From a bacterium (lineage in GTDB: Bacteria; Armatimonadota; Fimbriimonadia; Fimbriimonadales; Fimbriimonadaceae), in the NCBI GenBank assembly GCA_027483535.1, contig JAIXUN010000002.1, positions 868,001 to 932,000 on the forward strand: DNA of 64,000 nt, in the 5' to 3' direction. Below, in pieces: positions 11,298-13,372 of the stretch. Position 1 is the first letter of the stretch. Each line of letters begins with the position of its first letter. The notes under the pieces were generated by a model, which saw nothing but the letters and a program-made list of their open reading frames with translations, did no database searches and was not told the DNA's origin. The translations under genes and the position numbers were made by a program.

Positions 11298-11340
11298 CCG
11301 TTTCAACCCCTGTCCTTTGGACATTCTTCAAGGCGTATCC

Positions 11341-12900
11341 GTGGCTCAACTTGCTCTCTACCGCAAATATCGCAGCCAGACTTTTGAAGATCTGATCGGG
11401 CAAGACCACGTAGTCAAAACTCTCCAATCGGCCATTTCTTCCGGTCGAATGGCGCAGGCGTATCTGTTCACGGGTCCCCGAGGAACGGGAAAAACTTCCT
11501 CCGCACGTCTTCTCGCGAAGTGTCTGAACTGCGACCACGGTCCCACGCCGACACCTTGCAACGAATGCGAGCAGTGCATCGCGATCACCAACGGCAGCCA
11601 CGTTGACGTCAACGAAATCGACGCCGCCAGCGAATCGGGTGTCGATAACGTCCGGGACACGATCATCGAACAGACTCAGTACCTACCCATGATGGGCAAG
11701 TACAAGGTGTTCATCATTGACGAAGTCCACGACCTGAGCGCCAAAGCCTTTGACGCTCTTCTCAAGACGATCGAGGAACCCCCGGCTCACCTGGTCTTCA
11801 TCCTGGCAACGACGGAATACAACAAGGTTCCCCCGACCATCCGGTCGCGCTGCCAAAAGTTCGAGTTCCACCGAGCGACTCTTCAGAACCTGGTCGACCG
11901 TTTGACTTATGTTGTCGGTGAAGAAGGGGCGAATGCGGAACCTCAGGCGATTGCCGCGATCGCTCGCATGGCGGATGGCGGTTATCGAGACGCGCTGACC
12001 CTTCTGGAGCAGGCTCTGCTGGTTTCGGGTGGGAGCATCGACCTGCAAACGGTTTACGATCAACTTGGCTTGGTGACCGAGGAATCGGTAGACAAGTTGC
12101 TGGTTGCCATTCAGACGGGGAACGTCGGTGGTTTGGTCACCTTGCTCGACGAGATTGGTCGGCTTGGACGCGACCCAAGATCGATCTTGGAATCGCTCCT
12201 TCATCGCCTCGGAGATCTCACGCGCGCCGTTTACGAAGTCAGCGCCGATTCCAAGGATGCCGCTCGCGAGGCGAGCATGCACGACATTGCAGTGCGCCTG
12301 GGTCGAGAGTTTATTGTGGGCATTCGGGCGGAACTGAGCGAAGCGCACAAGGTTATTCGCGACATCAGCCTTCCGAAGTTGTGGCTGGAATCTGAACTGG
12401 TCCGCCTTGCGACAGTTGGGCTTCGAGCGAGTGCATCCGCACACGCGGCACCTGCTGCCGCATCGACCGGGAATCGAAGGTACGAAGAGCCGATTTCGGC
12501 GAAAGCGGCGGTTGCGGCACCTACTCAAACTGCCCCAGTCCAAACGCCCACTGCTCAAACGCCCGCTGCGCAAACTCCCGCCGCCCATGCCGAGCCTGCA
12601 CAAGCAGCAGCCCCGGTCCAAGCCGCGGTCCATGCGGGTGATATCTGGCAAAAGGTGTTCGCCCAAATCCCAGACAAAACTCCTTCGGGCGGAAACACCC
12701 CCATCAAGCTCAAATTGGCAAGCGCGTATTTGCTGGAGGACACGGGTAGCGAGATCGTGGTGGGCATCCCTCAACAGATGGCATTCGAGTGGTTGATGGA
12801 AGACCCTCGCAAAGCGGGCTACCTCCAAAAAATTCTCGGCGAACTTGGTCGTGGCGATGCACAGCTTCGCTTCGAGCTAAAAAAAAAACTGAGTTCGTAG
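11341..12900 (+). CDS. dnaX: DNA polymerase III subunit gamma/tau (short, zero-frame product)
   Basis: The clamp-loader ATPase. The start is GTG 11341, giving MAQLALYRKYRSQTFEDLIG with AAGG 7 nt upstream; this is the usual DnaX N-terminus. Walker A GPRGTGKT is at about 45-52, a zinc module C-x8-CxxCxxC follows, then DEVHDLSAKAFDALLKTIEEPP (Walker B) and the arginine-finger region TIRSRCQKF. A Pro/Ala/Gln-rich linker (about 380-430) leads to a C-terminal domain. The zero frame stops at 12900 after LKKKLSS, just past ten consecutive A, giving 519 residues. A -1 shift there yields about 565 residues. It forms an operon with ybaB and recR. Confidence 0.95.
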   Translation: MAQLALYRKYRSQTFEDLIGQDHVVKTLQSAISSGRMAQAYLFTGPRGTGKTSSARLLAKCLNCDHGPTPTPCNECEQCIAITNGSHVDVNEIDAASESGVDNVRDTIIEQTQYLPMMGKYKVFIIDEVHDLSAKAFDALLKTIEEPPAHLVFILATTEYNKVPPTIRSRCQKFEFHRATLQNLVDRLTYVVGEEGANAEPQAIAAIARMADGGYRDALTLLEQALLVSGGSIDLQTVYDQLGLVTEESVDKLLVAIQTGNVGGLVTLLDEIGRLGRDPRSILESLLHRLGDLTRAVYEVSADSKDAAREASMHDIAVRLGREFIVGIRAELSEAHKVIRDISLPKLWLESELVRLATVGLRASASAHAAPAAASTGNRRYEEPISAKAAVAAPTQTAPVQTPTAQTPAAQTPAAHAEPAQAAAPVQAAVHAGDIWQKVFAQIPDKTPSGGNTPIKLKLASAYLLEDTGSEIVVGIPQQMAFEWLMEDPRKAGYLQKILGELGRGDAQLRFELKKKLSS

Positions 12901-13037
12901 TCGCTGAATCAGAAGCGGTAGAATTGCCCGTAGACGGTGCTCGTCTTGAAAAGCTCATTCGAGAAGTGTTCGGGATCGATCCTGAACCCAGTGCGGATGG
13001 GATGAAGGCACCGATGAAAGAGGATAACGACGGATGA
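12879..13037 (+). other. dnaX: dnaX A10 slippage site and -1 frame extension (tau-type C-terminus)
   Basis: Ten A residues occupy 12879-12888, read in zero frame as the third base of CTA plus three Lys codons, with a stop only four codons later. Shifting -1 (or adding one A in the mRNA) continues in frame for 49 codons from 12888 to 13034, with TGA at 13035-13037. The extension contains VDGARLEKLIREVFGIDPEP, which resembles the natural end of DnaX proteins. Its stop overlaps the ybaB ATG as ATGA, as expected for a coupled operon. A short hairpin (12889-12896 with 12906-12912, one bulged G) follows the run. In E. coli, ribosomal frameshifting, and in Thermus, transcriptional slippage, make two DnaX forms at A-runs. 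Confidence 0.75.
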
Positions 13038-13372
13038 AACTTCCCAAGGGATTTGGTGGCGGCGGCGGACTCGGCGACATGATGTCTTCGATGCAAGGCG
13101 CAATGGCCCGAGCTCAGAACCTAGAACAAGAACTCGAAAAAGAAGAGTTCGTGATCGACAAGGGCCCGGTTAAGGCAACCTTCGACGGAGTCGGTCGCAT
13201 CAAGAAAGTTTCCATCGACAAGTCGGTGGTCGATCCCGAAGATGTCGAAGCGCTTGAGGACCTGATCGCAGGCGCCATGCGCGACGGATTTGAAAAGGCG
13301 GTTGAAATCCGCAACGACAAGATGGCCGAGATTCTTCCGAACCTTCCGAAGATTCCCGGTCTGACCATGTAA
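13034..13372 (+). CDS. ybaB: YbaB/EbfC family nucleoid-associated protein
   Basis: A 112-residue DNA-binding protein of the small YbaB/EbfC family, usually coded between dnaX and recR as here. The N-terminus is Gly-rich and then helical (MMSSMQGAMARAQNLEQELEKEE). The core VKATFDGVGRIKKVSIDKSVVDPEDVEALEDL is the family signature, ending with a C-terminal helix and MPGL-like residues (IPGLTM). The ATG overlaps the stop of the frameshifted dnaX product. It likely binds DNA as a dimer; a role in recombination or chromosome structure is family knowledge. Confidence 0.93.
   Translation: MKLPKGFGGGGGLGDMMSSMQGAMARAQNLEQELEKEEFVIDKGPVKATFDGVGRIKKVSIDKSVVDPEDVEALEDLIAGAMRDGFEKAVEIRNDKMAEILPNLPKIPGLTM

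Follow-up and report, generated by a model that had tools for sequence, protein, structure and literature searches.

The window, that is, the whole stretch of 64,000 nucleotides analysed here, carries a dnaX gene whose identity is clear from its profile match (NCBIfam TIGR02397, 1.3e-122), followed directly by ybaB. Late in dnaX lies a run of ten adenines (A10) in the context TTC GAG CTA AAA AAA AAA CTG AGT TCG TAG, and the -1 frame opens at 12888 with ACT GAG TTC GTA, both by direct reading of the sequence. A viral-contig scan returned nothing. The features of the locus are the following:

11341..12900, + strand: dnaX as encoded, the short gamma-like form, with a probable GTG start at 11341 (the open reading frame list has TTG at 11317)
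12879..12888, + strand: putative A10 slippage run, read directly and the same in relatives
12890..12892, + strand: third-frame stop TGA, reached with 9 or 12 A, read directly
12898..12900, + strand: zero-frame stop TAG of the short form (10 A), read directly
12888..13037, + strand: 49-codon tail of the long tau-like form, reached with 11 or 8 A or by a -1 shift, with the motif VELPxDGxxLExLxREVF and the stop TGA at 13035-13037
about 12912..12926, + strand: conserved promoter-like box GAAGCGGTAGAATT, with TAGAAT at 12919-12924, independent of the run
13034..13372, + strand: ybaB, whose start codon overlaps the long-form stop

Reading the frames through the run, 11 or 8 A lead to the long product, which ends in EFVVAESEAVELPVDGAR, and 9, 10 or 12 A to the short product, which ends in ELKKKLSS. 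The first-pass annotation had placed A10 at 12879-12888, a zero-frame stop at 12898-12900 and an open -1 frame of 49 codons from 12888 to a TGA at 13035-13037 overlapping the ybaB ATG, and direct reading finds each of them there. The zero-frame stop right after the run also bears out its statement that the genome-encoded frame is the short one, given the A count of the assembly. Only the long form of DnaX terminates at the ATGA overlap with the ybaB start; after the short form, 133 nt stay untranslated up to ybaB (in the region 12901-13037), and translational coupling to ybaB could thus be open to influence from slippage.

Runs of this length are rare in the 3.77-Mb genome, where both strands together hold two A10 runs, the second apparently intergenic, alongside 19 A/T runs of eight and none of nine (counts of overlapping matches). 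In genomes G001 and G009 the dnaX run is the sole A10. A search of 61 genomes, among them that of the window, found DnaX in 60, and in about 50 of these the 3′ end of the gene was read. Of 20 genomes, each a species, of the window's genus (Fimbriimonas or near), eight carry a run of exactly ten A at this position of dnaX; the tree set also contains 46 other Fimbriimonadales DnaX genes, in none of which an A-run at the matching place reaches a length of eight. In a tree built from the first 370 DnaX residues the eight A10 species group together as a clade (SH-aLRT 99), within which the window's species branches off first. Since the carriers form a single clade, the run would most simply have arisen once and then been kept across a large divergence; DnaX identity between the window and the other A10 species is about 60%, and synonymous sites of the tail are near saturation among them. 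The first-pass annotation had proposed an alignment of related dnaX genes as a check and had taken relatives with a continuous dnaX and no A-run as evidence against a slippage site. Such continuous genes do occur, in more distant relatives only; all seven sister species keep A10. Elsewhere in the set, a dnaX match with one internal TGA and A7 at the end of its open frame (L188, G037:C9:54504-55676) is possibly another frame break.

The alignment of the eight A10 species contains the run in three registers: CTC AAA AAA AAA ACT in three species, GAA AAA AAA AAY in four, and CTA AAA AAA AAA CTG in the window only. The first two are separated by substitutions alone, with the frame kept and the length still ten. 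Inside the run every lysine is written AAA, a codon that accounts for only 10-43% of the lysines in the remainder of these dnaX genes (AAG: 57-90%), and synonymous conservation of the run's codons is among the highest in the gene. On this comparison the conserved property is the length of the run, rather than a codon or a residue. The surroundings of the run are likewise shared: in all eight species two of the three frames stop within 0-5 codons after it, and the third encodes the same conserved tail. As a control, the same double-stop condition holds at 4.5% of in-gene positions of the same genes, and at 3 of 145 in the corresponding region of relatives that have no run. The eight species are related and so are not independent trials in these counts, yet from one sub-clade to the next the stops vary in distance and in position.

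It is important to point out that the DNA encodes the long form in seven of the A10 species and the short form in the window's species only. The tail of the window nevertheless bears the marks of a translated sequence: in the long frame it is identical to its counterparts in three sister species (L004, L006 and L008) at 21-22 of 30 residues, as against 12-15 of 29 matching in the other two frames, so that it has presumably been translated for most of its history. With dN at 0.21-0.30 and dS at 0.8-1.5 towards the same species, the tail is, as judged from these substitutions, under purifying selection. Within the C-terminal alignment no residues are invariant except V, L, G and L in VELPxEGxxL, and all of these lie in the tail. 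A recent frameshift mutation, after which this species would be losing the tail and making a DnaX that is no more than a truncation, would fit an encoded product that ends at 12897, but it leaves unexplained why the protein sequence of the tail, with those invariant residues, is retained and why the break hits exactly the run whose length is conserved; we regard it as very improbable indeed.

Two possibilities then account for the flip: either the frame was shifted by one base while slippage continued to supply the long form, or the assembly has lost one A. If the real genome had A11, the long form would be encoded directly as in the sister species, and the site would remain a conserved slippage site, with no reversal of polarity. 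The sister reading L KKK TE would indeed require eleven A in the window, long homopolymers are the commonest error in some long-read assemblies, and A/T runs of 7-8 bases are fewer here than in genome G002 (10 versus 27 in 400 kb). Against a miscount, all seven relatives have exactly ten A, several of them from assemblies with k141-type names or other short-read style, and none of the 61 open reading frames shared over 400 kb has a homopolymer-linked frame break. A comparison of G002 with G000 showed one apparent frame break, which contains no homopolymer of more than five bases and was judged from strand and position to be an antisense-ORF artefact. An assembly error is the less likely of the two, but keeps an appreciable probability.

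The best explanation of the locus is that the A10 run is, with good probability, a programmed slippage site giving a long and a short DnaX, and the conserved run, the stops in the other frames and the selection on the tail support the switch between the two forms that the first-pass annotation had proposed. RNA polymerase copying A10 would produce some transcripts that have gained or lost A's; those with 11 (or 8) A would yield the long tau-like DnaX with its conserved C-terminal tail, and those with 10, 9 or 12 A the short gamma-like DnaX, predicted to end just past the last strand of the C-terminal domain. Both DnaX_C and DnaA domain I are related to this domain. In a structure model based on 23 relatives, confidence holds to about residue 84 and the remainder is disordered; the run falls at that boundary. 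A Thermus tau structure was sought as a match for the domain, and the PDB sequence search returned DnaA domain I instead. By analogy with the end of domain V of E. coli tau, the tail may carry the contact to Pol III alpha, and the short form would then be a clamp-loader subunit that lacks this contact. In the window's species, where the encoded frame is short, the long form would depend on slippage.

Slippage is most likely transcriptional in the main rather than ribosomal. A ribosomal -1 shift at A_AAA_AAA, with no slippage of RNA polymerase, could also make the second product: this heptamer is a known shift site, it is present in every register of the run, and a -1 shift would give the long form in the window and the short form in the relatives. 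The polymerase is favoured by the run's length and by the fact that register and direction differ within the clade, as well as by the stops kept in both other frames, which slippage of either sign needs and of which a ribosomal -1 site needs only one. A shift direction that is not conserved is considered a sign of transcriptional slippage in Antonov 2013 (PMC3711429). Both tRNA-Lys(UUU) and tRNA-Lys(CUU) are present, as two lysine tRNAs are in Thermus (PMC5009743), and this too speaks for transcription. Stimulators of ribosomal shifting point the same way. The 7-bp stem with one bulge that had been noted behind the run does exist, yet it is weak (-4.1 kcal/mol, z -0.5 versus shuffles) and is not conserved; among relatives fold z-scores are mostly near zero and no downstream stem-loop is common to them, so a stimulatory stem-loop was dropped. 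Nor is a Shine-Dalgarno-like motif seen in the alignment just upstream of the run. Ribosomal frameshifting as the source of the second product is therefore improbable.

A second conserved element lies behind the run. The 14-mer GAAGCGGTAGAATT is invariant in the eight A10 species, 22-23 nt after the run, and it recurs, with the sequence CGGTAGAAT or CGGTACAAT, in most members of the family and, beyond it, in a second family of the same order, in genes that have no A-run at all. As the motif CGGTA[GC]AAT it is conserved at synonymous positions in the 3′ end of dnaX in Fimbriimonadaceae and the second family (L010-L032, L169-L180), where conservation upstream of the box is weak. In two species of a more distant family (L189, L192), CGGGTACAAT stands directly after the dnaX stop and before ybaB. 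At first GAAGCGGTAGAATT seemed to be a stimulator acting with the run, a reading that was rejected because the box is present in species that have no run. The box probably supplies the -10 element of an internal promoter, within dnaX, for ybaB-recR; a sigma-70 scan found no full promoter at the box. The A-tract might then be the UP element of this internal promoter, the frame break being incidental. The geometry allows it, as the box lies 30 bp behind the run and, with TAGAAT (12919-12924) taken as -12 to -7, the run spans -52 to -43, which is the UP-element zone. However, neither an unbroken tract of just this length nor the stops in two frames would be needed for an UP element, in most of the family the box persists although no A-tract precedes it, and the scan recovers no sigma-70 promoter, all of which makes this role for the run highly improbable.

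Returning to programmed slippage, its strength may bear on the flip of polarity. Slippage could be so strong that the DNA-encoded frame hardly matters, in which case selection would act on the length of the run and on the stops in two frames, and leave the register free to drift and the encoded product free to switch between long and short among species; this is a tentative idea, which we do not hold to be the likelier case. If slippage is confirmed, dnaX slippage would extend to the Armatimonadota, and sister species with the same run in all three registers would offer a natural series in which to test run length against reading frame for the tau:gamma ratio. Gene callers will truncate DnaX in such genomes. 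A literature search found nothing linking Armatimonadetes with transcriptional slippage and only a genome report joining Fimbriimonas and dnaX.

Three known systems invite comparison. E. coli dnaX also yields tau and gamma from one gene, through a -1 ribosomal frameshift at A_AAA_AAG. Here, in contrast, the run contains no AAG, and no conserved stem and no Shine-Dalgarno-like stimulator upstream accompany it; moreover, E. coli gamma loses whole domains and the short form here only the tail. The closer parallel is T. thermophilus dnaX, in which stops in both other frames lie close behind the run (PMC1088944, PMC4320859). Both genes share a late A-run (at least nine A, and here conserved beyond codon need), stops soon after it in each of the other two frames, two DnaX forms of different length, and two lysine tRNAs. 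They differ in that the run is A10 here and A9 in Thermus, that the short form is encoded here, and that in the window a tail of about 49 codons follows a run placed at about 92% of the gene.

The encoded layout of the window has its counterpart in the two-ORF dnaX genes treated in the relevant section of Antonov 2013 (PMC3711429), 17 genes with 7-10 A, nine of them with ten, and also represented in Chlorobium and Chloroherpeton; Armatimonadota receive no mention in that section. Provided that the A count of the assembly is right, the window likewise has two open reading frames in a -1 relation at a poly-A run, the zero frame giving the short form and tau requiring recoding. What was described there is a gene type found across genera, unlike the flip among sister species of one genus seen here. 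The layout had been called the reverse of the usual one by the first-pass annotation; this is right for the encoded frame of the window, although not as a novelty, given the Antonov genes, and the seven nearest relatives have the usual layout. The interchangeability of the two layouts has also been noted in a review (PMC5009743). Thus, a dnaX that needs recoding for tau, often at ten A, has been known since 2013 (PMC3711429), and what is new here is the A10 clade, the change of polarity among members of one genus and a run that slides against the codons.
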